Origin: Mesobacillus subterraneus
GTDB lineage: Bacteria > Bacillota > Bacilli > Bacillales > Cytobacillaceae
Length of the DNA stretch: 64,000 bases
Direction of reading: 5' to 3'
NCBI RefSeq assembly: GCF_000934845.1
Contig: NZ_JXIQ01000019.1
Coordinates: forward strand, 1 to 64,000
Part shown: positions 22,034 through 36,237 of the stretch, piece after piece
How the letters are laid out: every line of letters starts with the position of its first letter
How positions within the stretch are numbered: position 1 is the first letter of the stretch
Translations under genes and position numbers: made by a program
Notes under the pieces: generated by a model
What the model was told of the DNA's origin: nothing
The model's input: the letters and a program-made list of their open reading frames with translations, nothing else
Database searches by the model: none

Positions 22034-22061
22034 TTGAATATTTCAAAATAAACGATATAAT
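22034..22061 (+). promoter_or_regulatory. Promoter of the lipid-regulon tetR gene
   Basis: TTGAAT, 16 bases, TATAAT. The operator at 22075 starts 13 bases after the -10, so a bound repressor would sit over the transcription start. Confidence 0.65.
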
Positions 22062-22074: not shown

Positions 22075-22094
22075 CATACCGACCGGTTAGTAGA
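22075..22094. promoter_or_regulatory. TetR operator, site 1 (autoregulation)
   Basis: CATACCGACCGGTTAGTAGA shares its layout with the sites at 22758 and 28661 and contains the palindromic ACCGGT core. It lies between the promoter and start of the TetR gene. Confidence 0.75.
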
Positions 22095-22160
22095 TGAATA
22101 AACGATGGGGAAAAACGGTATATTTTTTGTGCAGACTAGTAGGAATGCGAGGACAACAAA

Positions 22161-22724
22161 GTGAAAGAAAAAATAATCGAGTACAGCATTCAATTATTTG
22201 AAAAAAAAGGCTTCAGTGAGACATCCATCCAGGATATCGTTAATTCTATAGGTGTGACAAAAGGGTCTTTTTATTATTATTTTTCCAGCAAAGAAGAGCT
22301 TCTCATGGATATCCACCTGAGATATATCGACGAATTGCTCGGCCGACAAGAACAGATATTGGCTGATCCATCGACAAGCAAACAAAAATTGTTCGAGACT
22401 GTCTATATGCTGATCAGCAGCATTAAAACAAAAGGGACATCAGCAAGAATCTTTTTTAGAGAGATGCGGCACTTAAGCGATGCCAGACTGGCACAGATTA
22501 TCGACAAACGGGATGAATTTAGGCTGAACGTGGAACGGTTAATCCGGGAAGGAATCGAAATTGGGGAATTCCGTAAGGATTTAAACCCGGTCATTGTTAC
22601 GTTTGGAATACTCGGTGCAGCTAATTGGAGTTATCAGTGGTTTAATCCAGATGGCAAGGTTTCTGACAGGGAAGTAGCGGAGATATTTGTCGAAATGATC
22701 TTAAAGGGAATTGAAATCAACTAA
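22161..22724 (+). CDS. TetR-family regulator, probable repressor of the CoA-thioester regulon
   Basis: This 187-residue protein has the TetR helix-turn-helix at residues 20-45 (SIQDIVNSIGVTKGSFYYYF) and a C-terminal ligand domain resembling the fatty-acid or phenylacetate-type regulators of Bacillus and Thermus. Those respond to acyl-CoA. It starts at GTG (22161), which gives the standard length. Palindromes of one design lie in front of this gene, in front of the thioesterase gene 34 bases downstream of its stop region, and in front of the operon at 28772. It is therefore the obvious candidate to repress all three and to be released by a CoA-thioester intermediate. The binding and the ligand are inferred. 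Confidence 0.85.
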   Translation: MKEKIIEYSIQLFEKKGFSETSIQDIVNSIGVTKGSFYYYFSSKEELLMDIHLRYIDELLGRQEQILADPSTSKQKLFETVYMLISSIKTKGTSARIFFREMRHLSDARLAQIIDKRDEFRLNVERLIREGIEIGEFRKDLNPVIVTFGILGAANWSYQWFNPDGKVSDREVAEIFVEMILKGIEIN

Positions 22725-22757
22725 AGAATAAAATAGGAAGAGGATTAAAAACTTTAA

Positions 22758-22777
22758 CATACTAACCAGTCGGTAGG
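22758..22777. promoter_or_regulatory. TetR operator, site 2 (thioesterase unit)
   Basis: CATACTAACCAGTCGGTAGG, the second copy of the palindrome, is 21 bases before the thioesterase ATG. I see no strong -35/-10 pair next to it. The unit may also receive read-through from the tetR promoter. Confidence 0.7.
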
Positions 22778-22797
22778 GAGAAAGTGAGGATAAATAG

Positions 22798-23199
22798 ATG
22801 CAGAACATTCAAATCCAGGTCCGTTTTGGCGAAACGGATGCCTTAGGACATATCAACAATACAAGTTATTTTGTCTATCTTGAAGAGGCAAGAATCCGCT
22901 TTTTTGAATCATTAGGCTATAGCATGAAATTGGATGAGTGGAAATTCATACTAGCGTCAACCAAATGCGATTTTGTCAGCCAGGGATACTTTGACCAGCT
23001 TTTGACTGTGAAAACATATGTGTCAAGAATCGGGTCAAAAAGCTTCCATCTTGAGCATGACATCGTCTGCTCGCAAACGAATGAGCTAATCGCCAAGGGA
23101 AATGCCATCATTGTGTATTACGATTTTAAAAATCAAAAGAGTGAAGTGTTGCCTGAATTGCTCAAAGAAGCATTAAAAAATAATTTTTTACTTGCTTGA
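22798..23199 (+). CDS. Acyl-CoA thioesterase, 4HBT hotdog family
   Basis: The 133-residue hotdog-fold protein has the active-site signature VRFGETDALGHINNTSYFVY (residues 8-27), where the Asp of ETDALGHINN is the catalytic residue of 4-hydroxybenzoyl-CoA-thioesterase-type enzymes. Such enzymes hydrolyse acyl-CoA to free acid and CoA. It is the first gene after operator site 2 and shares its strand with the enoyl-CoA hydratase and lactonase genes. Within the proposed pathway it could release CoA from stalled intermediates. The substrate is not predictable from sequence. GTGAGGATAAAT precedes the ATG and is only a fair ribosome site. Confidence 0.85.
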   Translation: MQNIQIQVRFGETDALGHINNTSYFVYLEEARIRFFESLGYSMKLDEWKFILASTKCDFVSQGYFDQLLTVKTYVSRIGSKSFHLEHDIVCSQTNELIAKGNAIIVYYDFKNQKSEVLPELLKEALKNNFLLA

Positions 23200-23243
23200 A
23201 AAATGAATGATTTGTATTTGATTCTAATCAGGAGGTGCCTGGT

Positions 23244-23338
23244 TTGAGGTTCTCAGAAACGGTAGCGCTTATTACAGGAGCCGGAAGCGGAATACAGGAT
23301 CAGATGTCCTTGTCGATGGCGGATGGTTAATCAAATAG
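23244..23338 (+). pseudogene. Internally deleted short-chain dehydrogenase remnant
   Basis: After a perfect ribosome site (AGGAGGTG at 23230-23237) a TTG at 23244 opens LRFSETVALITGAGSGI, the first beta strand and NAD(P)-binding glycine motif of a short-chain dehydrogenase. The match then stops. In another frame, from 23294 to 23338, the DNA reads TGSDVLVDGGWLIK and a stop, which is the C-terminal end of the same family. About 225 codons between them are missing. The gene is therefore a recent-looking internal deletion that left both ends intact. The N-terminal frame itself ends at 23330 after 28 codons. It sits between thioesterase and hydratase genes in the same direction. Confidence 0.85.
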
Positions 23339-23360
23339 TTAATTCGAAAGGGTGAGCGAT

Positions 23361-24170
23361 ATGACAGAAGTTAAAACAAGTGACCATTTAATTGTAAACA
23401 GAAGCGGAGCCGTTCTTTCATTGACGCTTAACAGGCCTGAGAGCCTGAATGCTTTTAGCCCGGAAATGATTCTCGGAGTGACAGATGAAATCCAGAAGGC
23501 CCAGGAGGACCTCAATGTCAAAGTAATCATACTGTCTGGCTCCGGCCGCTCCTTCAGTGCCGGAGGAGATGTGAAAACGATGGGACAGGCAAATGCCGTT
23601 GGCGTTTATGACCATATCGGCAAATTGAATGAATGCATCCTCACCATTAAGGATACAGAGAAGCCAATCATTGCTGCAGTACATGGTTTTGCTGCTGGCG
23701 CTGGCTTCAACCTGGCATTGGCATGTGATTTGATCATAGCGGCGAACGACAGTAAATTCGCCCTGAGTTTTTCCCAGGTAGGCCTAGTATCTGATGGGGG
23801 CGGTTCCTATTTTGTCCCGCGGCTGGTTGGACCTCACCTGGCAAAACAATTTATGTTCACCGCAGAACCTATTCCAGCAGAACGCTTGTACCAGCTGGGA
23901 GTCATCAACTACCTTGTGCCATTGGAAAACCTTCAAGAGGAAACGATAAAACTAGCCAGTAAATTAGCCAATGGGCCAACACGGACGTATGGCATGATCA
24001 AAAAGCTGATTGACCATTCAATGGCCGCAACTTTAGAGGAAATCCTTGAGCAGGAGCGTATTACCCAGACGATGATGGTTTCAACAGAGGACCATCAAGA
24101 AGGTATTGCAGCTTTTAACTTACAAATGCGTGGTCTAACTCCACCGTCTTTAGACGGTATCAGCTTTTAG
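23361..24170 (+). CDS. Enoyl-CoA hydratase/isomerase, C-terminus altered by an IS insertion
   Basis: The crotonase-fold enzyme hydrates 2-enoyl-CoA or isomerises double bonds in beta-oxidation. Seen are 'LTLNRPESLNAFSPEM', the first oxyanion loop SFSAGGDVKTM and the second AAVHGFAAGAGFNLALACDL, typical of the family. The ATG at 23361 (AAGGGTGAG upstream) is preferred to the GTG at 23352. The gene as read ends at 24170, but bases from 24119 on belong to an IS200/IS605-type element, so the last 17 residues (from NLQMRG) are not native. The original end can be read after the element at 24767-24800. The catalytic domain is untouched, so the protein may still work. Confidence 0.88.
   Translation: MTEVKTSDHLIVNRSGAVLSLTLNRPESLNAFSPEMILGVTDEIQKAQEDLNVKVIILSGSGRSFSAGGDVKTMGQANAVGVYDHIGKLNECILTIKDTEKPIIAAVHGFAAGAGFNLALACDLIIAANDSKFALSFSQVGLVSDGGGSYFVPRLVGPHLAKQFMFTAEPIPAERLYQLGVINYLVPLENLQEETIKLASKLANGPTRTYGMIKKLIDHSMAATLEEILEQERITQTMMVSTEDHQEGIAAFNLQMRGLTPPSLDGISF
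24143..24158 (+). repeat. IS left-end hairpin
   Basis: ACCGTC-TTTA-GACGGT perfect hairpin, 25 bases inside the left border. Same TTTA loop as the right-end hairpin. Confidence 0.75.
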
Positions 24171-24211
24171 CCTTATCCTTGCGTGTCCATACTAAGTGAT
24201 GAGGTGAGAGT

Positions 24212-24643
24212 ATGGACGGATACAGGAAAAATAGTCATGCGGTATTTGATATAAAATATCACGTGATTTGGGTAACAAAATATAGATACAAGGTGTTGCG
24301 TGGCCCAATAGCGGTAAGAACGCGGGAACTAATAAGGCAGGGCTGTGAAGCAAGAGGCATAACAATCTTGCAAGGTAGTGTAGGAAAAGATCACATTCAT
24401 CTGTTACTATCATGTCCACCAAGTCTAGCTCCGAGTAAAATATTGCAATATCTGAAAGGGAGATCATCGAGGTTATTGCAAGACGAGTTCCCAGAACTAA
24501 AAAAGAAGTACTGGGGTCAACATTTATGGGCCAGAGGCTATTTTTGTGCAACAGTTGGTACAGTGACGGAAGAAATAATAAGAAACTATATTGCAAACCA
24601 GTTCAATGAAGAAAAGAACGACATATTCAAGATTGAAGAATGA
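24212..24643 (+). CDS. tnpA: IS200/IS605 family transposase TnpA (Y1 HUH enzyme)
   Basis: The 143-residue protein is full length for an IS200-type TnpA. It carries the HUH motif in GKDHIHLLLS (about residues 60-68), the conserved opening 'HAVFDIKYHVIWVTKYRYKVL', and the nucleophilic Tyr in IIRNYIANQF near residue 130. It cuts and rejoins single-stranded DNA at the element ends. The frame is intact and has a good ribosome site (GATGAGGTGAG), so the element may still be active. Confidence 0.95.
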   Translation: MDGYRKNSHAVFDIKYHVIWVTKYRYKVLRGPIAVRTRELIRQGCEARGITILQGSVGKDHIHLLLSCPPSLAPSKILQYLKGRSSRLLQDEFPELKKKYWGQHLWARGYFCATVGTVTEEIIRNYIANQFNEEKNDIFKIEE

Positions 24644-24738
24644 GTTCAGTCTCATTTGGAGTATGCTTCAGCTTAGGGGCTTTAAGAAGGACTTCAGCCT
24701 TGAATAACGACTTTAGTCGTCGACATTTATGTCAAAAT

Positions 24739-24758
24739 CCACCTGCTTTAGCAGGTGG
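24739..24758 (+). repeat. IS right-end hairpin
   Basis: CCACCTGC-TTTA-GCAGGTGG perfect hairpin, 8 bases inside the right border. Confidence 0.75.
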
Positions 24759-24766
24759 TCGTTTAA

Positions 24767-24800
24767 GGAAAAAAGGAAACCTGAATTTACAGGCAACTAA
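24767..24800 (+). pseudogene. Displaced 3' end of the enoyl-CoA hydratase gene
   Basis: Read in continuation of the codon split by the element, these bases give KEKRKPEFTGN and a stop. Spliced to EGIAAF before the insertion they restore the ordinary C-terminus of crotonase-family proteins (the usual form is 'EGIAAFxEKRxPxFxG'). The segment has no start and is no longer translated as part of the enzyme. Confidence 0.85.
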
Positions 24801-24808
24801 TGAGGATC

Positions 24809-24949
24809 ATGATGAAAGCAATTTCTTCAGTCCCGGCAAACGAAAGGAAAGCTGATTTTAAAACCTTAAAAAGACCTGCGGTAACAGTATGGCAAAGATT
24901 AATACGGTTACCGGTCCAATTAATGCAGAGCAATTGGGAAAGACTTTGA
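24809..24949 (+). other. Short open frame leading into the lactonase gene
   Basis: ATG ATG at 24809, with GAGG just before it, opens 46 codons (MMKAISSVPANERKADF...) that run past the start of the next gene in another frame. It may be the beginning of a lost gene or a leader that couples translation into the phosphotriesterase-like gene, whose own start lacks a ribosome site. I do not recognise the peptide. Confidence 0.25.
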
Positions 24950-25896
24950 TTCATGAACACTTTATTTTTGGCTATCCAGGTTTCCAGGGCGATGTGACGC
25001 TAGGTGCTTTCAATGAGGAAGCAGCTTTGGAAGAGGCAATCAACATTGTCAGGCATATGCAGAGCTTCGGTGTCCAGACTGTCGTGGATCCGACACCAAA
25101 TGAATGTGGCAGAAACCCGGAATTTTTAAAGAAAATATCTGAGGCGACAGGACTTCAGATCATCTGTGCAACAGGCTATTATTATGAAGGCGAAGGAGCA
25201 ACCCCCTATTTCAAATTCAGGCAGGCTTTAGGTACAGCTGAAGAAGAAATTTATGAAATGTTCAAGAAGGAGCTGACCGAAGGCATTGCAGGTACAGGAA
25301 TCAAGCCTGGAGTCATCAAATTGGCTTCAAGCAAAGACGAAATCACAGAATACGAAAAAATGTTCTTCCGTGCGGGTGCGCGCATCCAGCAGGAAACAGG
25401 AGCTGTGATCTTGACCCATACACAGGAAGGTACAATGGGTCCCGAACAGGTTCGGCTATTGATCGAAAATGGAGCGGATCCAGCAAAAATCATCATTGGC
25501 CATATGTGTGGGAATACAGACCCAGAATATCACAAACAAGTGCTTGACCAGGGCGTCAGGATCGGCTTTGACCGCTTTGGGATCCAGGGGATGGTGGGAG
25601 CACCATTCGATCAGCAGCGGGTACAGACTCTTCTTGCTTTGCTTACTGCAGGGTATGAGGACCAGATCTTACTTGCCCATGATACTGTGAATATCTGGCT
25701 CGGCCGTCCTCCTGTTATGCCTGAACAGGTAGCAAAAATCATGGAAAACTGGCAGCCAGGCCATATTTTCACCGATATCCTTCCGCAGCTAAGGGAAAAC
25801 GGAGTGTCCGAGACTCAAATCGATAAGATGCTTGGCGGTAATGCAATTGGGTTATTCACGGGATCTTCCGTAAATTTAAATTTCCTAGAATACTAA
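24889..25896 (+). CDS. Phosphotriesterase-like lactonase (PLL) family metal hydrolase
   Basis: The 335-residue amidohydrolase-superfamily enzyme has every ligand of the two-metal site: H22 and H24 (LIHEHF), the carboxylated K144 (GVIKLAS), H177 (LTHT), H205 (IIGHMCGN) and D265 (LLAHDT). The D-R-F-G stretch near residue 228 matches the Y/F-D-R-F/Y-G segment common in PLL enzymes. This suggests lactonase rather than true organophosphate activity. Such enzymes open gamma- and delta-lactones or acyl-homoserine lactones. It is downstream of the hydratase and the IS in the operator-2 unit. The ATG at 24889 has no clear ribosome site, and translation may be coupled to the short frame at 24809. Confidence 0.88.
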   Translation: MAKINTVTGPINAEQLGKTLIHEHFIFGYPGFQGDVTLGAFNEEAALEEAINIVRHMQSFGVQTVVDPTPNECGRNPEFLKKISEATGLQIICATGYYYEGEGATPYFKFRQALGTAEEEIYEMFKKELTEGIAGTGIKPGVIKLASSKDEITEYEKMFFRAGARIQQETGAVILTHTQEGTMGPEQVRLLIENGADPAKIIIGHMCGNTDPEYHKQVLDQGVRIGFDRFGIQGMVGAPFDQQRVQTLLALLTAGYEDQILLAHDTVNIWLGRPPVMPEQVAKIMENWQPGHIFTDILPQLRENGVSETQIDKMLGGNAIGLFTGSSVNLNFLEY

Positions 25897-25928
25897 CCCT
25901 TGATTCTATAAGAAAGGGGCGATGACCT

Positions 25929-26036
25929 ATGCAAAATTCACACATATTAAAAAAGGAATCAAGGATAGGCTCCCCAGCATGGCCTATCGAGTCAGTATCG
26001 GAAGAATTCATGAATGAATTAGCAGACACCTACTAA
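25929..26036 (+). CDS. Possible small protein, 35 residues
   Basis: ATG at 25929 preceded by AAAGGGGCGATGACC opens MQNSHILKKESRIGSPAWPI and ends ELADTY. It starts 33 bases after the lactonase stop and ends just before a strong terminator, so it would be the last frame of that transcript. I do not recognise it. It could be a real small protein or a remnant. Confidence 0.35.
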   Translation: MQNSHILKKESRIGSPAWPIESVSEEFMNELADTY

Positions 26037-26044
26037 CTATGTAA

Positions 26045-26085
26045 AAAGGAGATGCGCTTTCATACCGAAGCGCATCTCCTTTATT
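26045..26085. terminator. Strong bidirectional terminator
   Basis: AAAGGAGATGCGCTT / AAGCGCATCTCCTTT, a 15-bp perfect stem with an 8-base loop between convergent genes. Confidence 0.9.
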
Positions 26086-26090
26086 TATCA

Positions 26091-27140
26091 TTATAAAATC
26101 ATTTCAGATTGTACGTAGTGATAAAGCAGCTTAGTTGTATTTTCAATAGAATCTTTATGCGTTCTTTCAAATGCGTGTGATGAATCGATTCCAGGACCAA
26201 TCAGACCGTGGATGATATCATGTCCTGAACGGATTGCGGCTGAAGCGTCCGATCCATAAAAAGGATAGATATCGAGTTTGTAGCCGATTCCATTGTCGAT
26301 GGCCAGTTGTGTCAGCCTTTTACGAAGTTCATAATGATATGGGCCGCTCGCATCCTTCACACAAATGGAAACCGTATATTCATCGGTAGATTGGCCATCG
26401 CCCATCGCACCCATATCCACCGCCAGGTACTCAACAGTTTCCGGTGTGATATTCGAATTTCCTCCATAACCGATTTCTTCATTATTAGAAATGAGGAAAT
26501 GTGTTGTATACGGCAGTTCCATGTTTTCACTTTTGATTTGTTTGATTAGCTGAAGGAGGATTGCTACGCTTGCTTTATCGTCCAGGTGACGTGATTTAAT
26601 ATACCCGGATGGCGTAAGCTGTACACGCGGATCAAACGAGACAAAATCTCCAACCTCGATGCCAAGTGCTCTCACATCATCAGCACTTTGGACTTTTTCA
26701 TCGACACGTACTTCCATGTTATCCTGGTTGCGCTCTGCTTTTCCGGCATTCTTATAGACATGTACGGAAGTCTGGTGCATCAAAATCGTTCCTGAGTACT
26801 TTTTTCCGCTGGAAGTTTCAATCTCACAATACTCACCCTCGATGGAGTTATACTTAAAGCCGCCGATCAAATCAAGCTTTAGTCGTCCACTTGGTTTAAT
26901 TTCTTTTACGATGGCGCCAAGAGTATCGACGTGGGCAGTCAGCATTCTGTGGTTTTGCCGATCTTTCCCCTGCAAGGTGGCAATCAACCCACCCTTGCGA
27001 TTTCTTTTCGTTTCTACCTGCAATTCCTTTAAATAATTTTCTACATATGTAATCACATCGTTTGTATTACCTGAAGGACTCGGAATACTGACCAGTTCCT
27101 TCAACAGGTTCACTGTCTCGTCCGTAATTGGATATGCCAT
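26091..27140 (-). CDS. M42 family metallopeptidase (YsdC-like aminopeptidase)
   Basis: This 349-residue enzyme of the M42/glutamyl-aminopeptidase family is a cobalt- or zinc-dependent cytosolic aminopeptidase. The metal-site motifs are 'LTAHVDTLGAIV' (His and Asp), RHLDDKASVA (bridging Asp), 'SNNEEIGYGGNS' (catalytic and ligand Glu), AVDMGAMG (Asp) and SSHAFERTH (His). The frame extends upstream to 27215, but the ATG at 27140 has GGGAGGAG in front and gives the family length. It is a single gene divergent from sodF. Confidence 0.9.
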   Translation of the reverse strand: MAYPITDETVNLLKELVSIPSPSGNTNDVITYVENYLKELQVETKRNRKGGLIATLQGKDRQNHRMLTAHVDTLGAIVKEIKPSGRLKLDLIGGFKYNSIEGEYCEIETSSGKKYSGTILMHQTSVHVYKNAGKAERNQDNMEVRVDEKVQSADDVRALGIEVGDFVSFDPRVQLTPSGYIKSRHLDDKASVAILLQLIKQIKSENMELPYTTHFLISNNEEIGYGGNSNITPETVEYLAVDMGAMGDGQSTDEYTVSICVKDASGPYHYELRKRLTQLAIDNGIGYKLDIYPFYGSDASAAIRSGHDIIHGLIGPGIDSSHAFERTHKDSIENTTKLLYHYVQSEMIL

Positions 27141-27291
27141 ATTATAACTCCTCCCTATAATGAAGATTCTCGCATTATTCTTATTATAAACTTTTTTCCT
27201 GAAGCGAAATACCATTTAACTTTAAATACTGTAATCCTTAAACCAGTCCGCTCATATTTTGATTATGGATGTAGTTTTGGGAGGCGATAAA

Positions 27292-28185
27292 ATGCACGGG
27301 TATTGGTTTAAATATTCCTTGCAGGAATGGTGCAGGGAGATGGAAGAGAAATGGGACTCCGTAAAAGCTCAGCTTAGAGAATCTGGAGATCAAGACTCGT
27401 TAATGCAATGGGAAGAAAACTTATTCACACTGAAAAATAAAGCAGAAAGTAACCCGGATGCGGAAGAGTTGTATGCACAAGCAAGAAAATTATTTGACGA
27501 GCTTACAAATTTTGAAAATAGCCCTGAAGATGGACGCCTGCAACCACAGAGGCTACAGCCGGTGCCAATAGGAGGCCACAAATTGCCGCCATTGCCATAT
27601 GCTTATAATGCGCTCGAGCCTGTGATCGATAGAGAAATCATGAGACTTCATCATTTAAAGCATCACCAAGGCTATGTAGATGGCTTGAACAAAGCAGAAA
27701 AAGAAATGCAGAAAGCCAGGCAAACCGGTGATTTCTCTTTGATCAAACACTGGGAAAGGGAAGCAGCTTTCCACGGATCAGGCCATTATCTCCACACGAT
27801 TTTTTGGAACATTATGATCCCGAATGGAGGGGGAACTCCAAAAGGGCAGCTAAGCAAGGCCATCAACGATACATTCGGCAGCTTCGAGAATTTTAAAAAA
27901 CATTTTACCGAAGCCGCTAAAAATGTCGAAGCTGTAGGCTGGGTCATCCTTGTCTGGTCTCCTCGTTCCCATCGCCTCGAGATCCTCCAGGCTGAAAAGC
28001 ATCAAAACCTGACACAGTGGGATGTTGTTCCACTCCTCGTTTTGGACGTTTGGGAACATGCCTATTATCTTCAATATAAAAACGAACGGGCTAAATATGT
28101 TGAAAACTGGTGGAATGTTGTCAACTGGAAGGAAGTAGAGCAGCGGTTCAACAAAGCCAGGGCATTAGCTTGGCAGCCATTTTAG
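27292..28185 (+). CDS. sodF: Superoxide dismutase, Fe/Mn family, with N-terminal extension
   Basis: The 297-residue protein contains a complete Fe/Mn-SOD domain from about residue 95 (LPPLPYAYNALEPVI). Metal ligands are His in LHHLKHHQGY, His in 'GSGHYLHTIFW', and Asp/His in LDVWEHAYYL. The first 90 residues are an additional charged helical region (MHGYWFKYSLQEWCREMEEK onward) like that of B. subtilis SodF, which is also unusually long. There is no signal peptide. The enzyme dismutates superoxide, but activity of this extended branch should not be taken for granted. The ATG at 27292 follows GGGAGGCG; the frame upstream of it is discarded. Confidence 0.88.
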   Translation: MHGYWFKYSLQEWCREMEEKWDSVKAQLRESGDQDSLMQWEENLFTLKNKAESNPDAEELYAQARKLFDELTNFENSPEDGRLQPQRLQPVPIGGHKLPPLPYAYNALEPVIDREIMRLHHLKHHQGYVDGLNKAEKEMQKARQTGDFSLIKHWEREAAFHGSGHYLHTIFWNIMIPNGGGTPKGQLSKAINDTFGSFENFKKHFTEAAKNVEAVGWVILVWSPRSHRLEILQAEKHQNLTQWDVVPLLVLDVWEHAYYLQYKNERAKYVENWWNVVNWKEVEQRFNKARALAWQPF

Positions 28186-28186
28186 A

Positions 28187-28216
28187 GGAGTGACTTAGTG
28201 TCACTTCTTTTTTTGT
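28187..28216 (+). terminator. Terminator after sodF
   Basis: GGAGTGAC-TTAGT-GTCACTTC stem followed by TTTTTTTG. Confidence 0.85.
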
Positions 28217-28267
28217 ATAAAAGCTTCCTTTTGGCAAAAACTAAACATATGTTCGGGAGGTGGTATT

Positions 28268-28579: not shown

Positions 28580-28604
28580 CAGGGAATTTCCCCTGCTATT
28601 TTTG
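28578..28604 (+). terminator. Terminator after the DUF3892 gene
   Basis: AGCAGGG / CCCTGCT stem with a T-rich tail, overlapping the stop codon. Confidence 0.75.
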
Positions 28605-28622
28605 TTTCCTATATAAAAAAAC

Positions 28623-28651
28623 TTGATTTTTCTGAAATTTCAATCTAAAAT
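28623..28651 (+). promoter_or_regulatory. Promoter of the acyl-CoA dehydrogenase operon
   Basis: TTGATT, 17 bases, TAAAAT. The operator begins 9 bases after the -10, over the expected start point. Confidence 0.65.
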
Positions 28652-28660
28652 TAAGAGTAA

Positions 28661-28680
28661 CATACCAACCGGTAGGTATG
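28661..28680. promoter_or_regulatory. TetR operator, site 3 (acyl-CoA dehydrogenase operon)
   Basis: CATACCAACCGGTAGGTATG is a 20-bp palindrome with only positions 7 and 14 unpaired. It is the best of the three related sites and gives the consensus. Confidence 0.85.
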
Positions 28681-28771
28681 TGAAAAAGGGTAGTAACATA
28701 CAATTTTAATAGGCCAGTTTGTTTAATAAGTAAAAATGAAAGCGTTAACAGCTACCAGATAGGGAGGAATC

Positions 28772-29536
28772 ATGATGGGAAGATTTGATGGCCGAGTGGC
28801 TTTTGTAACAGGAGGAAGCCGGGGAATTGGAAAAGGGATTGTCCAGCTATTCGCGCAAGAAGGAGCTAAAGTAGCTTTTATTGATTTGAACGAGGAAGTA
28901 CTTGCAGATACAACGAATGAGCTTCGTGAAAAGGGATATAAAGTCTACTCAAAGATAGCGAATGTTACTGACGCAGAGCAAGTAGAACAAGCTTTCAAAG
29001 AGGTGAAAGATACCTTTGGTTCGGTTGATATTCTAGTGAATAATGCGGGCATCATACGTGACAACCTTCTTTTCAAGATGACCGACTCTGACTGGCAAAC
29101 AGTCATGGATGTTCACTTAAAGGGATCATTCAATGCAGCCAGGGCTGCTCAGAAGTACATGGTCGAACAGAAGTATGGCCGGATTATTAATATTTCCTCA
29201 ACTTCTGCACTTGGAAACCGAGGACAGGCAAACTATGCTGCAGCCAAGGCAGGGCTTCAGGGGTTCACCAAAACCCTGGCCATTGAGCTGGGGCGTTACG
29301 GCATAACCGCAAACTCCGTAGCTCCAGGGTTTATCGAAACGGAAATGACAAGAGAAACTGCAGCTCGAATTGGCATCCCTTTTGAGGATTTAATTAAACA
29401 CAGTGTAGCGGGAATTCCTGTTGGCAGAAGCGGAAAACCGGAGGATATTGCCAATGCGGTCGCTTTCTTTGCGGATGAAAAATCATCCTTTGTAAATGGC
29501 CAGGTCATTTATGTCGCAGGCGGGCCTAAAAATTAA
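28772..29536 (+). CDS. FabG-like short-chain dehydrogenase
   Basis: This 254-residue SDR has the cofactor motif VTGGSRGIGKG (residues 12-22), the structural NNAGI, the catalytic Ser in ISSTSALG and the Y-x-x-x-K in NYAAAKAGL. The acidic residue after the second strand (FIDLNEE) suggests NAD+ preference, hence an oxidative role such as 3-hydroxyacyl-CoA dehydrogenase in a degradative pathway. It is the first gene after operator 3 and precedes two MaoC genes. Two ATGs (28772 and 28775) follow AGGGAGGAAT, and either could be used. Confidence 0.9.
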   Translation: MMGRFDGRVAFVTGGSRGIGKGIVQLFAQEGAKVAFIDLNEEVLADTTNELREKGYKVYSKIANVTDAEQVEQAFKEVKDTFGSVDILVNNAGIIRDNLLFKMTDSDWQTVMDVHLKGSFNAARAAQKYMVEQKYGRIINISSTSALGNRGQANYAAAKAGLQGFTKTLAIELGRYGITANSVAPGFIETEMTRETAARIGIPFEDLIKHSVAGIPVGRSGKPEDIANAVAFFADEKSSFVNGQVIYVAGGPKN

Positions 29537-29553
29537 CGTGAGGTGAAGGATCT

Positions 29554-30003
29554 ATGTTCAAAGAGCATATTGGCAAGCAATCGAATAAAGTGAAAAATAT
29601 AGTTGAACGCGGTGCTGTCAAAAAGTTTGCGGAAGCCATCGGGGATCTTCATCCCATTTTCGTGGACGAGGAAACGGGCAAAAACTCCAGATACAGCAGA
29701 AACATCGCGCCGCCAACGTTTCCGAGAGTATTTGACTATGGAACAATCGACGGATTGAACCTTCCAAATAAAGGCCTGATCCATGGTGAACAAACCTACC
29801 ATTATGAGCGTCCATTATTGGTAGGTGAAGAACTCACATGCTACTCCGTAGTGGAAAATTACTTTGAAAAGAAAGGCACTCAAGGAGAGATGGGATTTCT
29901 TGTGCTGGAGAGCTTTGGCGAGGACGACATGGGTCAGGTTGTTTTCACTTCTACGCAAACAGTCATTATTACGGAAGCAGTAAGGAAGGTGCTGATTGGA
30001 TGA
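29554..30003 (+). CDS. MaoC-like dehydratase, N-terminal (FAS1-like) type, lacking the catalytic His
   Basis: The 149-residue hotdog protein matches the MaoC_dehydrat_N family: 'VKKFAEAIGDLHPIFVDEE' then 'RNIAPPTFPRVF' and LIHGEQTYHYERPLLVGEEL. In active R-hydratases the motif is G-D-x-N-P-x-H. Here it is GDLHPIF, so the His is Phe and the Asn is His. In known split hydratases the N-type subunit is inactive and shapes the substrate tunnel. The gene overlaps the next one, an intact MaoC, by 4 bases, which argues for a heteromer. GTGAGGTGAAGG precedes the ATG. Confidence 0.85.
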   Translation: MFKEHIGKQSNKVKNIVERGAVKKFAEAIGDLHPIFVDEETGKNSRYSRNIAPPTFPRVFDYGTIDGLNLPNKGLIHGEQTYHYERPLLVGEELTCYSVVENYFEKKGTQGEMGFLVLESFGEDDMGQVVFTSTQTVIITEAVRKVLIG

Positions 30004-30413
30004 GTAGATTGGCAGAATGGAAGATTGGTGAATCTCTAAAGGAAATCCAGCTGGATCCGGTGGATCGTATCACTTTAATTAAATATGCCGGTGCCTCCGG
30101 TGATTATAATCCGATTCATACAATAGACGAAGAAGCCCAGAAAGCGGGACTGCCTGGGATTATCGCTCACGGAATGTGGACGATGGGCAACCTGGCAAAA
30201 CTGTTTACTAATTTTTACGAGGAAGGTTACATTCAGGACTATACCATTCGTTTCAAAGGAATGGTGTTCCTGAATGACGTTGTCACTCTCCAGGCTGAAC
30301 TGGCAGAGGAAAATGAAAACAATCTCCGATTCCTCGTCCGAGCAGTCAACCAAAATGGCAACGAGGTCATTAAAGGAACTGTTACTTGCCAGCTTTATGC
30401 TTCTTCATACTAA
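30000..30413 (+). CDS. MaoC family enoyl-CoA (R-)hydratase, catalytic subunit
   Basis: This 137-residue single hotdog protein contains the complete hydratase-2 motif YAGASGDYNPIH followed by GLPGIIAHGMWTM, so the catalytic Asp and His are present. It would hydrate trans-2-enoyl-CoA to the (R)-3-hydroxyacyl-CoA. Its ATG overlaps the stop of the N-type MaoC gene (ATGA). The pair probably forms one enzyme, which would feed the FabG-like dehydrogenase upstream. Substrate size is unknown; split MaoC pairs in other bacteria handle bulky or branched acyl chains. Confidence 0.88.
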   Translation: MSRLAEWKIGESLKEIQLDPVDRITLIKYAGASGDYNPIHTIDEEAQKAGLPGIIAHGMWTMGNLAKLFTNFYEEGYIQDYTIRFKGMVFLNDVVTLQAELAEENENNLRFLVRAVNQNGNEVIKGTVTCQLYASSY

Positions 30414-30566
30414 TAATATCAATAATTTCAGGAATATCTGCGCCAATTGTTTCAGCTAAATCTACTTCTGTTAAAAAAACGTTTGTTTTTTCCAGAAACA
30501 GGTGACGTTGATGATGGTTTGAAACAGAATTATTCAATCAAAAGAAAATTTGAAGAGGTGGAAGAT

Positions 30567-31772
30567 ATGAATTTTGACCATACAGAAAAGGTCAAGGAAT
30601 ACCAGGCCAGGCTGACAGATTTCATGGATGAATACATTTATCCAAATGAACAGGTATATAATGAACAAATTGACAAAAAGGACCCTTTTTCAAAGGTTCC
30701 ATCGATCATGGAAGAACTAAAGGTAAAAGCAAAAGAAAAAGGTCTTTGGAATCTGTTTTTGCCTAAGAGCGAATATGGGGAAGGATTGACAAATCTCGAA
30801 TACGCTCCCCTTTGCGAAATCATGGGCAGGTCCAGCATCGCGCCAGAGGTGTTCAACTGCGCTGCTCCAGATACCGGGAATATGGAAGTGCTTGTCCGCT
30901 ACGGAACGGAAGATCAAAAGGAACAATGGCTGAAACCACTTTTAAATGGGGAAATCCGTTCCTGTTTCTCCATGACGGAGCCGGATGTTGCTTCATCTGA
31001 TGCAACGAATATTCAGGCTAGCGTCGTCCGTGATGGCGACGAATATGTTATTAACGGGACAAAATGGTGGTCATCGGGTGCAGGCGATCCGCGCTGCAAG
31101 ATTGCGATCGTGATGGGAAAAAATGACCCAAATGCTCCAAAGCATGAGCAGCAATCTATGGTTCTCGTTCCGCTGGAAAGTCCGGGAGTGACAATTAAGA
31201 GAACCATCCCAGTCTTTGGCTATGACCATGCTCCACATGGACATGCCGAAATAGAATACAAGAATGTCAGAGTGCCTGTTTCCTATATGATTTGGGATGA
31301 AGGGAAAGGCTTTGCGATTGCCCAGGGGCGTCTTGGCCCAGGCAGGATCCACCATTGCATGAGGACGATTGGAGCTGCTGAAAGGGCACTAGAGGAAATG
31401 TCCAAACGGGTACTGGAAAGAACTGCTTTTTGCAAAACACTTGCCGAACAGGGGGTCATCCAGGAATGGATCGCGGAAGCACGAATCGATATTGAGCAGT
31501 CCAGACTTCTGACATTGAAAGCCGCCTATATGATGGATACAGTTGGAAACAAAGAAGCGAAAGCAGAGATTGCAATGATCAAAGTTGTTGCACCAAATAT
31601 GGCGTTGAAAATCATCGACAGGGCGATCCAGGCTTTCGGCGCTGCAGGAGTAAGTGATGATACCACGCTCGCTGCTTCCTGGGCAAATATCAGGACACTG
31701 AGGTTGGCGGATGGGCCTGATGAAGTACACAAACGGGCAATTGCAAGGTATGAACTGAAAAAATATAGGTAG
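30567..31772 (+). CDS. Acyl-CoA dehydrogenase of the ACAD10/ACAD11 type
   Basis: This 401-residue flavoprotein has the acyl-CoA dehydrogenase signatures [32 protein letters not shown] and [11 protein letters not shown]. The stretches '[15 protein letters not shown]' and [15 protein letters not shown] are specific to the ACAD10/ACAD11 subgroup. In animals these handle 4-hydroxyacyl-CoA by eliminating a 4-phosphate put on by their own kinase domain; the bacterial counterparts are Lva-type enzymes. The matching kinase is encoded at 32606. The frame opens at 30447, but the ATG at 30567 with AGAGGTGG upstream matches the family start. About 150 bases separate it from the MaoC gene, and no promoter is obvious there. 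Confidence 0.9.
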
Positions 31773-31784
31773 GGGGAAACAGCA

Positions 31785-32558
31785 ATGCATGTATCAGAAT
31801 TATTTTCACTAAAAGGAAAAGTCGCCATTGTCACTGGTGGCGGACGCGGTCTCGGCGAACAGATCGCTGTTGGTTTTGCAGAAGTAGGAGCCAATGTTGT
31901 CGTCTGTTCGCGACGAGTCGCGGCATGTGAGGAAGTAAGTCAAAAACTGAAGGAAATCGGTGTTGAATCCCTTGCTTTGAAATGTGACATCACGAACCCA
32001 GAAGATGTAAAAAATGTCGTTAACCAAACTGTAGAGAAATTCGGCCGGATCGATATTCTCGTCAATAACAGCGGAGCGTCATGGGGAGCGCCAGCGGAAG
32101 ATATGCCGCTGGAGGCGTGGCAAAAGGTAATGAATGTCAATGTGACTGGAACATTTCTGATGTCACAGACAGCTGGGAAAGTCATGCTCGAACAAGGCTC
32201 AGGGAAAATCATCAATATTGCCTCGGTGGCTGGATTGAAAGGGTCCAATCCAAAGATAATGGATGCAATTGGCTATAACACCAGCAAGGGCGCTGTGATC
32301 ACTTTTACAAAAGACCTTGCTGCAAAATGGGGACCACGCGGGATCTACGTTAATGCAATAGCACCCGGTTTCTTCCCGACTAAAATGTCAAAAGGCCTGC
32401 TGGAAAAAAGCGGCCAGGCAATCCTCGAAGGAACGCCACTACGGAAATTTGGATCTGATAACGACCTAAAGGGGGTTGCTGTATTCCTAGCGTCCCCAGC
32501 CTCTGACTACATCACTGGAGACGTAGTCGTAGTGGATGGCGGCACTCATGTCCTTTAA
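31785..32558 (+). CDS. Short-chain dehydrogenase/reductase
   Basis: The 257-residue SDR has VTGGGRGLGEQ (residues 16-26), NNSG in place of NNAG, the catalytic Ser in IASVAG and the Y-x-x-x-K in GYNTSKGAV. The loop after the second strand reads CSRR, with no acidic residue, which favours NADP(H). It lies 12 bases after the acyl-CoA dehydrogenase and 2 codons' distance from the kinase unit, so it belongs to the operon. A second reductase beside the FabG-like one suggests that two different hydroxyl or keto positions are handled, for example C3 and a distal carbon. Confidence 0.9.
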   Translation: MHVSELFSLKGKVAIVTGGGRGLGEQIAVGFAEVGANVVVCSRRVAACEEVSQKLKEIGVESLALKCDITNPEDVKNVVNQTVEKFGRIDILVNNSGASWGAPAEDMPLEAWQKVMNVNVTGTFLMSQTAGKVMLEQGSGKIINIASVAGLKGSNPKIMDAIGYNTSKGAVITFTKDLAAKWGPRGIYVNAIAPGFFPTKMSKGLLEKSGQAILEGTPLRKFGSDNDLKGVAVFLASPASDYITGDVVVVDGGTHVL

Positions 32559-32605
32559 AAATGGGAGAATGCATTGAAAAGAAATTCCAAAGGAGGAATG
32601 GAAAA

Positions 32606-33664
32606 ATGGCTTCTGATACGATACCGATCAGGCAAGGAGAAGAACTAGATACAGAAGGAATCGAAAAATACCTGAGGGAGCAATTGCCTGATCTTCCAGA
32701 AGGCATTTTAACAGTTGATCAGTTTAGCTTTGGGAAATCAAACCTCACCTACCAGCTGAAAATTGGAGAATGGGAGGCCGTCTTAAGGCGGCCTCCGTTC
32801 GGTCCTGTTGCACCAAAAGCGCATGATATGGCTAGAGAGTACAAAATTCTTAAAGAGATTAGTCCACACTTTGCTGCTGCTCCGAAGCCCTTTTTATTTG
32901 CTGATGAAAATGTCATCGGCAGTCCGTTTTTTGTGATGGAAAGAAAGCGTGGCATCGTACTTGATACAGATTTCCCAGAAGGCATCGCGCCGACTGAAGA
33001 AATGTGCAGATCGTTATCGGAAACGATGGTTGACCACCTCGTTGAGCTTCATAGCATCGATTATACGAAGACTAGGCTGACCGAAATGACAAAACCTGAA
33101 GGCTTCATGGAACGGCAGGTCATAGGCTGGATCCGCCGTTATGAGCGAGCGGAAACGGATATTATCGAAGGGGTTGAGCATTTGAAACAATGGTTGCTAA
33201 AGAATGTCTCAGAATCCAAAATGCCAGCAATCATTCATTATGATTATAAATTGAATAATTCCATGTTCAATGAGGATTTAACCAAAATGGTCGGACTGTT
33301 CGACTGGGAGATGACGACGGTAGGTGACCCGCTGGCCGATCTGGGTGTGGCGATGAGCTACTGGATTCAACCGGATGATTCCGATCTGTTAAAAAGCGGG
33401 CTGGGAAAACCGCCAGTTACAGTGATACCAGGGTTTATGACGCGTAACGAATTCATGGAGAGGTATGCGAGGAAAAGCGGCAAGGACCTTGCGAATATGA
33501 ATTTCTATCAAACATTCGCTTATTTCAAGCTTGCGGTGATCTGCCAGCAAATTTATTTTAGGTGGAAAAATGGCCAGACAAAGGATAGCCGGTTTGCTCA
33601 CCTAGATGCGTTTGTCAGCAGCCTGATTCAATATGCGTTATATACCTCAGAAGAGAAGGGGTGA
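32606..33664 (+). CDS. Aminoglycoside-phosphotransferase-like kinase, ACAD10/11 kinase-domain type
   Basis: This 352-residue APH-fold kinase shows FGKSNLTYQL (glycine-rich region), 'AVLRRPPFGPVAPKAHDM' (ATP Lys region and a stretch typical of the acyl-CoA-linked branch), HYDYKLNNSMF (catalytic loop, Asp and Asn present) and GLFDWEMTTVGDPLADLG (metal-binding Asp). The PPFGPVAPKAH and DWEM..GDPLADLG blocks are those of the kinase half of ACAD10/11 and of LvaA, which phosphorylate the 4-hydroxyl of hydroxyacyl-CoA. It is not an antibiotic kinase by this context. The ATG at 32606 follows AAGGAGGAATGG. The downstream phosphatase gene overlaps or abuts its stop. Confidence 0.88.
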   Translation: MASDTIPIRQGEELDTEGIEKYLREQLPDLPEGILTVDQFSFGKSNLTYQLKIGEWEAVLRRPPFGPVAPKAHDMAREYKILKEISPHFAAAPKPFLFADENVIGSPFFVMERKRGIVLDTDFPEGIAPTEEMCRSLSETMVDHLVELHSIDYTKTRLTEMTKPEGFMERQVIGWIRRYERAETDIIEGVEHLKQWLLKNVSESKMPAIIHYDYKLNNSMFNEDLTKMVGLFDWEMTTVGDPLADLGVAMSYWIQPDDSDLLKSGLGKPPVTVIPGFMTRNEFMERYARKSGKDLANMNFYQTFAYFKLAVICQQIYFRWKNGQTKDSRFAHLDAFVSSLIQYALYTSEEKG

Positions 33665-33672
33665 AGGACAGA

Positions 33673-34443
33673 ATGAAAATTCACCTTTTGCTAAAAAAAG
33701 AAGAGATTGACAAGCAAAAAATGGCCGACAATAAAATCGCTGTAGTTTTTGATGTGCTTCTGGCAACTTCCACGATCACGTCAGCCCTTGAATTCGGTGC
33801 CAAAGAGGTGATTCCGGTCAATGATAGAAAGGAAGCGGAAAAGGAAGCAGCAGGGAGGGAGAAAGATTGTTTCGTACTCGTCGGCGAGTATCAGGGGAAA
33901 ACAATCGATGGGTTTCTGTCACCAAATCCGCTGGAATTGAGAGAAAAAATCGAGGGGAAGTCCGTCATCCTGTCGACAACCAATGGAACCGTCGCGCTTA
34001 AAAATTCGGCCGATGCCCAAAGAGTTTATGCGGCGTCCTTAATGAATTGCCGGGCAGTAGCCAATCATATTTTAAAAGATTACCAGGGAGAAACGATCGT
34101 GGTTGTCTGTTCAGGCTCCTCGAATGAGTTTAATGTCGAGGATTTCCATGGGGCGGGATGCTTCATTGACTGCCTAATTAAGGAATATGACAAGGAGTAT
34201 TTCCTGACGGATTCTGCTTATGCTGCGCAAAGTTTCTACCATAGGCACAATCTAAACAGTAATGATATTTTAAAAGATACCAGAGTTGGACGGATGCTAA
34301 GTAAACATGGCTTTGACGAGGAAATTGAATTTGTCTCACGGCAAAATATTTTTACCACGGTTCCTATGCTGATGGACAAAAAGAGGATAATAGACGTTTT
34401 GAATGACAACGTTTACAAAAAGGAAGGAAAAGTATGTCATTGA
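33673..34443 (+). CDS. 2-phosphosulfolactate phosphatase (ComB) family protein
   Basis: The 256-residue protein matches the ComB family: VVFDVLLATSTITSALEFGA, 'GEYQGKTIDGFLSPNPLEL' and ILSTTNGTVALKN are its three conserved blocks. Classical ComB removes phosphate from 2-phosphosulfolactate in coenzyme M synthesis, which Bacillus lacks. In this operon, directly behind a hydroxyacyl kinase, a phosphatase acting on a phosphorylated hydroxy acid is a more likely job. A GTG at 33661 overlaps the kinase stop, but the ATG at 33673 with AAGGAC upstream is the better start. Last gene before an 80-base gap and the ligase. Confidence 0.85.
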   Translation: MKIHLLLKKEEIDKQKMADNKIAVVFDVLLATSTITSALEFGAKEVIPVNDRKEAEKEAAGREKDCFVLVGEYQGKTIDGFLSPNPLELREKIEGKSVILSTTNGTVALKNSADAQRVYAASLMNCRAVANHILKDYQGETIVVVCSGSSNEFNVEDFHGAGCFIDCLIKEYDKEYFLTDSAYAAQSFYHRHNLNSNDILKDTRVGRMLSKHGFDEEIEFVSRQNIFTTVPMLMDKKRIIDVLNDNVYKKEGKVCH

Positions 34444-34521
34444 AAACAGAAGGAAGGTATTGCTTCCTTTAAAAAGAATTGCTCTTAAGCCGGTTGAATA
34501 ATAATCTATGAAGGGGACTAT

Positions 34522-36237
34522 ATGATGCCAAACCTACACTTTGATCACTGGCCAAGAACCTCTAAATCTCTTATATTGCCGGAAACATCCCTCTATGAGA
34601 ATCTGAAAGTCAGTGCGGAAAGATATCCGGACCAAATTGCAATCTATTACTATGGAAATGCCATTACTTACAGAGAGCTGAACGAAGATGTAAATTCACT
34701 TGCTGGATTCCTCCAGCAGAAACTTGGAGTTAAAAAGGATGACAGAGTTTTGTTATTCATGCAAAATTCTCCCCAGTTCGTCATTGGATTCTATGCAATT
34801 TCTCGAGCTGATGCAGTCGTAGTGCCAATCAACCCTATGCTGACTGCAGATGAATTGAGTTTTTACATCAATGATTGTGAGATTACTTCGGCGTTGGTTG
34901 GGCAGGAGCTTTATGCAAAGGTTGAGCCGCTGATCGGTTCAACTCCATTACAGAATGTTGTGGTTGCTGCCTACTCTGATTACAAAGGAGAGAATTTTGA
35001 CGGTGTCGTACCTCCGGAGGCAGAGGCTGCCAGGGAAGTTCATGAACAACCAGGGCACTTCCATTGGATTGAAGCTATTGCAGCCCAATATGAGCCAGAT
35101 GCCCATACGACAAAGGCAGATGACATTGTCGTGCTTCCCTATACATCCGGAACAACCGGACTTCCAAAAGGCTGCATGCATACGAATCGGACCGTCCAGG
35201 CGAATACCATCGGAGCCTATCATTGGTCCAGCTCGACAACGAGTACCGTTCACTTGACTACATTGCCATTATTCCATGTGACCGGCATGGTACACAGCAT
35301 GCATATGCCGATTTTTTCCGGAAGTACGATGATCCTAGTGACAAGATGGAACCGGGAGACAGCGGTGGAACTAATAAAATCTCAAGAGTGCACACACTGG
35401 GTTGCGATTGCTACGATGATTGTCGATTTCCTGGCGAATCCAAAACTTGATCCAAGGGATATTGCCACACTAACATCGATTTCCGGCGGGGGCGCAGCCC
35501 TTCCAGAGGCAGTGGGGGAAAAGCTTTTTAAATTGACCGGGCAGCGATTTGTAGAAGGGTACGGACTTTCCGAAACAATATCCCAGACCCATTTCAATCC
35601 ACCAGATCGGCCTAAAATGCAGTGCCTTGGCATTCCATCCTTTGATGTTGATGCAAGGATTATTGAACCATCCACCGGGAACGAGCTTGATCCCGGTGAG
35701 GCAGGAGAAATTATCGTAAATGGGCCGCAGGTAATGGTGGGATATTACAACAGGGAGGAGGAGAACAGAAGTTCCTTCATTGAAATAGATGGCAAAAAGT
35801 TTTTCCGGACGGGCGATATTGGCCGTTATGATGAAGAAGGCTACTATTTCATGGTTGACCGTGTTAAAAGGATGATCAATGCTTCTGGCTATAAAGTTTG
35901 GCCTACAGAGGTTGAATCTTATCTTTACAAACATCCGGCAATCCAGCAGGCGGTTGTAGTCGGAATACCTGACCCAAGAAGAGGCGAATCGGTAAAAGCA
36001 TTTATCATTTTAAATAATGGGTATGAAGGAAAATTAAGCGAAGAAGAAATCATCGATTGGTCCAAACAGCATATGGCAGCTTATAAGTACCCTCGCGAGG
36101 TAGAATTCAGGACGCAATTCCCGATGACCAGCAGCGGCAAGATTCTGTGGAGGAAGCTTCAGGAGGAAGAAAGGGAAAAGGCTGAAAATCAAGTGAGAGA
36201 AAAGACTCCGTCAGAATATTCAAATGCTGATAATTAA
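34522..36237 (+). CDS. AMP-forming acyl-CoA synthetase (fatty-acid:CoA ligase)
   Basis: This 571-residue ANL-superfamily enzyme has the AMP-binding P-loop LPYTSGTTGLPKGCMHTN (near residue 210), the A5 block EGYGLSET, the A7 Asp in FFRTGDIG, the hinge 'VDRVKRMINASGYKVWP' and the C-terminal Lys in TSSGKILWRKL. It would activate a carboxylic acid, in this context a hydroxy or branched fatty acid, to its CoA ester, the entry step of the pathway. It is on the same strand as the operon, 78 bases behind the phosphatase gene, and closes the cluster with a terminator. Two ATGs (34522 and 34525) follow AAGGGGAC. Confidence 0.92.
   Translation: MMPNLHFDHWPRTSKSLILPETSLYENLKVSAERYPDQIAIYYYGNAITYRELNEDVNSLAGFLQQKLGVKKDDRVLLFMQNSPQFVIGFYAISRADAVVVPINPMLTADELSFYINDCEITSALVGQELYAKVEPLIGSTPLQNVVVAAYSDYKGENFDGVVPPEAEAAREVHEQPGHFHWIEAIAAQYEPDAHTTKADDIVVLPYTSGTTGLPKGCMHTNRTVQANTIGAYHWSSSTTSTVHLTTLPLFHVTGMVHSMHMPIFSGSTMILVTRWNRETAVELIKSQECTHWVAIATMIVDFLANPKLDPRDIATLTSISGGGAALPEAVGEKLFKLTGQRFVEGYGLSETISQTHFNPPDRPKMQCLGIPSFDVDARIIEPSTGNELDPGEAGEIIVNGPQVMVGYYNREEENRSSFIEIDGKKFFRTGDIGRYDEEGYYFMVDRVKRMINASGYKVWPTEVESYLYKHPAIQQAVVVGIPDPRRGESVKAFIILNNGYEGKLSEEEIIDWSKQHMAAYKYPREVEFRTQFPMTSSGKILWRKLQEEEREKAENQVREKTPSEYSNADN

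Follow-up and report, generated by a model that had tools for sequence, protein, structure and literature searches.

The window analysed here is a 64,000-nucleotide stretch of Mesobacillus subterraneus DNA (contig NZ_JXIQ01000019.1, positions 1 to 64,000), and the locus in question, at 22075-36237, encodes a phosphotriesterase-like (PLL) lactonase, an acyl-CoA ligase, an APH-type kinase and an acyl-CoA dehydrogenase of the ACAD10/11 type. The locus is probably a TetR-controlled regulon for the assimilation of lactones and 4-hydroxy acids, with the individual reactions assigned by analogy to enzymes that have been tested elsewhere. What appears to be new is the joining, in one Bacillales regulon, of the lva/ACAD10-11 route with a lactonase entry like that of the qsd operon.

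An original prediction for this DNA had named the lactonase, ligase, kinase, acyl-CoA dehydrogenase, two MaoC proteins, crotonase, SDRs, thioesterase and ComB-type protein, and all were located in the window. The families found among its open reading frames (ORFs) were TetR, 4HBT thioesterase, crotonase, PTE/PLL, SDR1, FAS1_DH-type MaoC, MaoC, acyl-CoA dehydrogenase, SDR2, APH kinase, ComB-type protein and AMP ligase. The features of the locus are as follows (a dot marks features given without strand).

22034-22061, +: promoter-like TTGAAT-16-TATAAT ahead of the repressor gene
22075-22094,.: operator 1, 3 mismatches, starting 14 bp past the end of the -10 box
22161-22724, +: TetR-family repressor, TetR_N and TetR_C_24 domains
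22758-22777,.: operator 2, 3 mismatches, ahead of the thioesterase gene; position kept in relatives
22798-23199, +: 4HBT_2 acyl-CoA thioesterase
23244-23331, +: remnant of a third SDR with an internal deletion; gene intact in relatives
23352-24170, +: crotonase, gene end substituted by insertion sequence (IS) DNA past 24118
24119-24761, +: IS200-like element, Y1 transposase at 24212-24643; adjoining MDR gene of relatives deleted
24889-25896, +: PLL lactonase, GKL type
26045-26082, +: terminator-like hairpin 3' of the lactonase gene
28623-28651, +: promoter-like TTGATT-17-TAAAAT
28661-28680,.: operator 3, perfect palindrome, starting 10 bp past the end of the -10 box
28772-29536, +: SDR1, FabG-like
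29554-30003, +: MaoC-type subunit, FAS1_DH_region
30000-30413, +: MaoC-type hydratase subunit
30567-31772, +: ACAD10/11/LvaC-type dehydrogenase with Arg, HCMR motif and catalytic Asp
31785-32558, +: SDR2, PRK08213 type; adjoins the ACAD10/11-type gene in many relatives
32606-33664, +: APH-type kinase, relative of the ACAD11 kinase domain
33661-34443, +: ComB-type protein (2-phosphosulfolactate phosphatase family), 4-bp overlap with the kinase gene
34522-36237, +: acyl-CoA ligase, PRK08314 type; its relative adjoins the lactonase gene in many genomes

Between the lactonase gene and the main operon lie a minus-strand M42 peptidase gene, a superoxide dismutase gene and a DUF3892 gene. The true starts of the dehydrogenase and kinase genes are likely to be the ATG codons at 30567 and 32606.

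Operators of the window

The palindromes at 22075, 22758 and 28661 show 3, 3 and 0 mismatches, respectively, to CATACCNACCGGTNGGTATG, a consensus drawn from these three sites and from 28661 above all, so that the mismatch counts hold partly by construction and independent support comes from relatives and whole-genome searches. The chance rate is 0.01 sites with up to 3 mismatches per 64 kb (one hit in 100 first-order random sequences), and the three matching operators that had been proposed are borne out at these positions. A search of the whole 3.9-Mb genome with CATACYNACYRGTNRGTATG, allowing up to 1 mismatch, returned only 22758 and 28661, and the reversed pattern returned 0 sites under the same conditions; site 22075, which is weaker, was not recovered at this stringency. 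The -10 boxes end at 22061 (site 1) and 28651 (site 3), just ahead of the operators, a placement that would suit a repressor. Promoter-like matches numbered 19 there, against a shuffle mean of 14.4 (sd 4.1), so enrichment is not clear, and the 6 terminator-like sites are not enriched over the mean of 6.4 in shuffles.

One palindrome precedes separate operons across genera

An operator weight matrix was built from 24 sites of the window's family, with a random rate at threshold of 0.01 per 20 kb, as gauged on 2 Mb of random sequence. In Geobacillus and Parageobacillus a site lies just 5' of a ligase-PLL pair in 7/7 loci (weakest in L097), and in Halobacillus just 5' of the PLL gene in 9 of 11 loci, with the sites of L121 and L140 ahead of the preceding genes of a presumed PLL operon; the kinase is encoded elsewhere in both groups. 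Taking together the 31 PLL loci that have no kinase within ~13 kb, a site stands ahead of the PLL operon, as judged by co-directional genes, in 24. Of the kinase stretches, 20 were fetched, two of them of the linked type, and 17 carry a site upstream of a run with ACAD10/11, SDR2 or kinase genes.

The exact core TACYNACYRGTNRGTA was found at 62 sites (2-5 per genome) in 16 genomes that had been picked for carrying the lactonase, compared with 13 for the reversed control. Four Geobacillus genomes have five exact sites each, and in G. thermodenitrificans (G208) all five precede operons with homologues of the genes of this locus:

ACAD10/11-SDR2-ligase-TetR-kinase-ComB-MDR
ligase-PLL
SDR-SDR-crotonase
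ACAD-SDR1-MaoC-MaoC-thiolase-TetR-Liv transporter
thioesterase, then a class-V aminotransferase and a distant dehydrogenase (the weakest case)

A further 22 sites were read in 10 genomes, three of them from G208, and 18 precede a homologue of a gene found in the locus, either here or in relatives. These comparisons make a single trans-acting regulon across genera a well supported prediction. The single regulon of the original prediction is supported by the same evidence, the palindrome standing ahead of separate operons in Geobacillus and Halobacillus.

Two other palindrome arrangements were observed. A related palindrome, TGTACCAACCGGTTGGTTTT, lies downstream of the Halobacillus lactonase gene (L120 11240, L123 11316) and is possibly another TetR site. 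G104:C64 has a second kinase copy, 43% identical, at 261797-263724; starting from the 5' end of this copy, one meets two exact core sites, TACTTACTGGTAAGTA, at a distance of ~0.7-0.9 kb outside the gene, perhaps the mark of a paralogous regulon.

The lactonase travels with the kinase

A genome comparison had been proposed as a check on whether the lactonase and kinase co-occur, and the comparison, once made, did not refute the reading. A survey of 193 genomes of the family, with cut-offs of E<=1e-30 for the kinase and E<=1e-60 for the lactonase, found the kinase in 108 and the lactonase in 37. The kinase is present in all 37 PLL-positive genomes and in 71/156 PLL-negative ones (Fisher p 1.8e-11, a value that ignores kinship). 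The two genes are also close together, since 36 of 38 PLL copies lie within 25 kb of the kinase gene, 22 within 10 kb and 19 within 5 kb; the exceptions at 25 kb are G077 (separate contigs) and G180 (35 kb). Neobacillus-type genomes have the genes in a single run, as in L021 (TetR-thioesterase-kinase-ComB-SDR-crotonase-MDR-PLL).

Named genomes were then scanned by PLL alignment, and the best 80 of 197 confirmed places were examined. Within 10 kb of the PLL gene a kinase match (44-66% identical) was present at 28/80 loci and a match to the window ligase at 40/80. There were 44 loci outside the window's genus without a nearby kinase, and 43 belong to genomes that encode it elsewhere (43-68% identical), the sole exception being a Syntrophaceae metagenome-assembled genome (MAG). 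Once the 8 loci from the window's own genus are added, the genome holds the kinase for 79/80 of the best loci. PLL relatives encoded on plasmids of Paracoccus and Halorussus had no kinase match nearby. The gene order is ACAD10/11-kinase-MDR-SDR2-ligase-PLL in Brevibacillus L139 and PLL-ligase-ComB-kinase...ligase-ACAD10/11 in Marinithermofilum L124; because orders differ among genera in this way, repeated assembly is suggested rather than one inherited arrangement. In view of co-occurrence, proximity and the common operator, a chance co-location of lactonase and kinase was rejected.

These data bear on a reading in which the lactonase serves quorum quenching or detoxification and its siting with the kinase pathway is incidental. 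The Rhodococcus PLL QsdA degrades acyl-homoserine lactones (PMC6262395). Yet the operator is held in common in trans and the kinase accompanies nearly every one of the best PLL loci, and we judge that reading very unlikely.

Classes of the dehydrogenase, kinase and lactonase

The closest solved structures to the window dehydrogenase are 4hr3 (1e-137) and ACAD11 2wbi (8e-137), followed by full-length ACAD11, with the next family at 6e-39. In mouse ACAD11, R626, H634, R637 and D753 are active-site residues that are shared with LvaC and special to this group (PMC12440821). The window protein has LADGPDEVH plus the Arg/HCMR stretch and retains all four diagnostic residues, the catalytic Asp standing in place of Glu. 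Over 50 loci the four equivalents show no substitution where covered (48, 49, 49 and 48 identical; one gap); in these and the following residue counts over loci some genomes are counted twice, as unnamed and named records overlap. The window dehydrogenase is thus classed, by its sequence, with ACAD10/11/LvaC and far from other acyl-CoA dehydrogenases.

The kinase matches the solved bacterial protein 9o56 (1e-143) and the ACAD11 kinase domain 8v3v (3e-48), and its catalytic D, N and DFG-like D are retained in 82/82 loci. Homology and intact catalytic residues place it in the LvaA/ACAD10-11 type. The domains of ACAD10 can be replaced in vitro by orthologous bacterial proteins, and its kinase prefers R-4-hydroxyhexanoyl-CoA (PMC11342911). 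The pairing of an ACAD10/11-type dehydrogenase with a partner kinase, which had been predicted, is supported at the level of enzyme class.

PLL lactonases find use in quorum quenching and in the breakdown of organophosphates, yet their physiological role is poorly settled. All six metal ligands are present in the window protein (H22, H24, K144, H177, H205 and D265), in agreement with the complete metal site predicted for it. Over 106 PLL loci, H22 and H24 differ in one and the other four in none. Its nearest structures are 3f4c (8e-152), 3orw (4e-151) and then DR0930 (3e-132), and it is far from entries at ~1e-49, which we take to be of the SsoPox type, and from 4if2 (2e-45). Geobacillus relatives are 66-67% identical, and 3orw and like structures are presumably Geobacillus proteins. 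By these matches the window lactonase is assigned to the GKL-type PLLs with a full binuclear metal site. A 96% identical lactonase occurs in L067, in a record titled Chryseobacterium sp. ISL-80, a name that looks wrong.

A proposed pathway

In the scheme proposed, the lactonase would open the ring of a gamma-lactone, or perhaps of a delta-lactone, and the ligase would convert the resulting hydroxy acid to 4-hydroxyacyl-CoA. The kinase would then phosphorylate the 4-hydroxyl with ATP and the ACAD10/11-type flavoenzyme eliminate phosphate to give a 2-enoyl-CoA, steps that follow tested relatives and, for the second, the conserved residues. Hydration by the MaoC pair or the crotonase, oxidation by an SDR and cleavage by a thiolase encoded elsewhere would complete the sequence. 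SDR2 may interconvert 4-oxo- and 4-hydroxyacyl-CoA, as LvaD, which is said to be the SDR of the lva operon, reportedly does. The repressor would bind the ATAC-N10-GTAT palindromes just past the -10 boxes, and either an acyl-CoA of the pathway or a lactone would release it.

Relation to known systems

The lva operon of P. putida (levulinic acid; LvaA kinase, LvaC dehydrogenase, LvaE ligase) resembles the locus in its kinase, ACAD10/11-type dehydrogenase and CoA ligase and in the 4-phosphoacyl-CoA logic (PMC12440821, PMC11342911). Kinase, dehydrogenase, SDR and ligase are found together here in the same way. The locus differs in having a PLL lactonase and a TetR repressor in the regulon, and nothing points to levulinate. 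The ORF list, in which an LvaB-like protein was sought, has no extra gene of at least 80 amino acids between the kinase gene and its neighbours. Mammalian ACAD10 and ACAD11 have homologous kinase and dehydrogenase domains with the same active-site residues, whereas the two are separate polypeptides here.

The qsd operon of Rhodococcus erythropolis likewise combines a TetR regulator (QsdR), a PLL lactonase (QsdA) and a CoA ligase (QsdC) (PMC6262395, PMC6476934), and it is induced by gamma-caprolactone and required for its assimilation (PMC6476934). That trio is present in the present regulon, in separate operons in the window and with ligase-PLL behind one operator in Geobacillus. In contrast, the available text of the qsd descriptions includes no kinase or ACAD10/11 enzyme (PMC6262395, PMC6476934); the term 'phosphotransferase' is absent from PMC6262395 and PMC3689677, and 'aminoglycoside' and 'dehydrogenase' from PMC6476934. 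The original prediction knew of no Bacillus pathway with this gene set joined to a lactonase; its novelty is reduced, as a TetR-PLL-ligase operon required for growth on gamma-caprolactone had already been described as qsd. Within the part of the open-licence literature covered, no paper was found that links a PLL lactonase with the kinase/ACAD10-11 pair.

Two TetR repressors that control other pathways are alike in operator sequence. The site TACCGACCGNTNGGTN predicted for PfmR of Thermus differs from site 1 by one mismatch and from site 3 likewise (PMC7022988), and the ATAC-N10-GTAT operator of MbdR from Azoarcus, a repressor that is released by a pathway acyl-CoA, fits site 3 (PMC4424350).

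The GKL-type Geobacillus lactonase (3orw and others), a close sequence match, here joins a kinase and an ACAD10/11-type enzyme in a defined catabolic regulon, which suggests what lactonases of this type may do physiologically; no description of a physiological role for it was found in the part of the open-licence literature covered. The Geobacillus genomes with five exact operator sites each also offer a simple bacterial setting for 4-hydroxy acid catabolism, for which the route in mammals was assigned only recently.

Evidence against the reading and a larger-acid alternative

A number of findings weigh against a regulon for lactones and 4-hydroxy acids. Of the family genomes with the kinase, 71/108 are without this lactonase, which is for that reason an accessory entry step at most, and PLL enzymes are promiscuous, so that the ring is not fixed by sequence. 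No operator was found ahead of the PLL operon in 7 of the 31 loci without a nearby kinase (L132, L135 and L136 of Alicyclobacillus, with L136 truncated; L143 and L144 of Geomicrobium; L145, an actinobacterial MAG; L128, a Sporosarcina MAG), nor in 3 of the 20 kinase stretches (L157, L158, L163). Four of the 22 further sites precede no homologue: that of L188 lies behind an SDR2-ligase pair and ahead of an unidentified ORF, and those of Halobacillus L192, L194 and L199 stand ahead of another two-gene unit with a ligase-like gene, the first gene of which in L199 was read by eye as an acyl-CoA carboxyltransferase. In the fifth Geobacillus operon, the thioesterase is the one member that fits the pathway.

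The ComB-type protein has no step in the proposed pathway. It was rejected as an obligate part because several loci, L022, L025 and L030 among them, have no match next to the kinase. A phosphatase as general partner of the kinase is only suggestive, at 3/9 annotated plasmid neighbourhoods (a SurE gene 3 kb off in a Rhodococcus was left out of the count). The phosphatase-family neighbours vary, with ComB in the window (33661-34443), histidine phosphatase in Azospirillum and Sulfitobacter and HAD in Haloferax (L169, L171, L173), and recall the HAD domain of ACAD10. In that protein the domain restrains the kinase, in place of the ComB-family protein encoded 3' of the kinase here (PMC11342911).

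In the same stretch, relatives of the same genus carry additional genes, namely an SDR, MDR, metallo-hydrolase, ligase, R2lox, aldehyde dehydrogenase (ALDH), iron-type alcohol dehydrogenase (Fe-ADH), three dehydrogenases, a thiolase, an esterase and a Liv-type transporter. The transporter and the extra dehydrogenases suggest that larger or branched acids are degraded too, a further point against the simple form of the reading. The main rival builds on these genes, holding that a larger acyl compound (a branched, alicyclic or hydrocarbon-derived acid) is degraded, that the 4-hydroxyl arises only inside the pathway and that the lactonase, instead of acting on lactones from outside, reopens a gamma-lactone into which the 4-hydroxy intermediate has closed spontaneously. 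Besides the R2lox, ALDH, Fe-ADH, transporter, esterase, and several dehydrogenases and ligases of the same-genus loci, it can draw on the many kinase genomes without the lactonase and on an alkane-oxidising cluster of R2lox with ALDH/ADH in G. kaustophilus (PMC10867098). R2lox, however, lies within 10 kb of the PLL gene in only 8 of the best 80 loci, all of the window's genus, it was not found in the present genome, and the lactonase has an operator of its own in Geobacillus and Halobacillus. We consider this rival rather unlikely.

The R2lox gene itself sits inside the lactonase/ACAD10-11 locus of the window's genus (L041 8739-9632, G076; L067-L074), beside ALDH, Fe-ADH and ligase genes, and matches 4hr0 (2e-72). 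A similar mycobacterial neighbourhood of PLL, FadE, TetR, R2lox and ALDH presumably exists. A wider proposal is that GKL-type PLLs throughout Bacillales natively serve to supply an ACAD10/11-type kinase-eliminase pathway with 4-hydroxy acids, under a single conserved TetR regulon of up to five operons, and that, given R2lox in the window's genus, an oxygenase-derived hydroxy acid or lactone is the natural substrate; we hold the case for it to be evenly balanced. If true, this would give R2lox a metabolic setting.

The window copy is reduced

Further points against the reading come from the window itself. Compared with G082, eight loss junctions were found, near 23294, 24823, 25943, 28708, 30414, 32585, 34465 and 36213, and the losses are clean, gene-sized deletions. 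The first 15 codons of the kinase ORF derive from the start of the deleted thiolase gene. The IS200-like element lies between the crotonase and lactonase genes and has severed the latter from its upstream operator; none is found immediately 5' of it (24650-24889), and an operator belonging to the lactonase in the window was therefore rejected. The copy is not a complete pathway. The genes originally named are present, but the thiolase, three dehydrogenases, transporter and esterase of relatives are deleted, so that steps must be borrowed from elsewhere in the genome. All five of the genes for lactonase, kinase, ligase, ACAD10/11-type dehydrogenase and SDR2 have been kept, which, post hoc, would fit the view that they are the specific part.

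It could be argued that the locus in this genome is a decaying relic whose function has gone, in view of the loss junctions, the IS insertion, the SDR remnant and a somewhat raised pairwise ratio of nonsynonymous to synonymous rates (dN/dS). Pairwise dN/dS against G082 is 0.03-0.15 for the retained genes, and gene by gene, interleaved ones included, the window value exceeds that of G076, another point against the main reading. On the other hand, 12 genes are still open (the crotonase with an altered end), and the dN/dS of the window branch is 0.082 for the 12 regulon genes (35 nonsynonymous, 82 synonymous changes) as against 0.103 for three interleaved genes (9 and 16). The changes may predate the deletions, and the low dN/dS is no proof of selection after them. 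Four thiolases and seven other dehydrogenases are encoded elsewhere in the genome, where R2lox was not found in a search made without a positive control. A mere relic is, on this evidence, unlikely.

The genome, at 3.9 Mb, is smaller than most of the genus (mostly 4.4-4.9 Mb). Alignment of window positions 4492-51652 with G082:C1 246050-340655, from a genome of the same genus, showed ~15 gaps of ~0.7-11 kb, mostly clean, and thus repeated gene-sized deletions in the window's lineage, an unusual pattern of streamlining.

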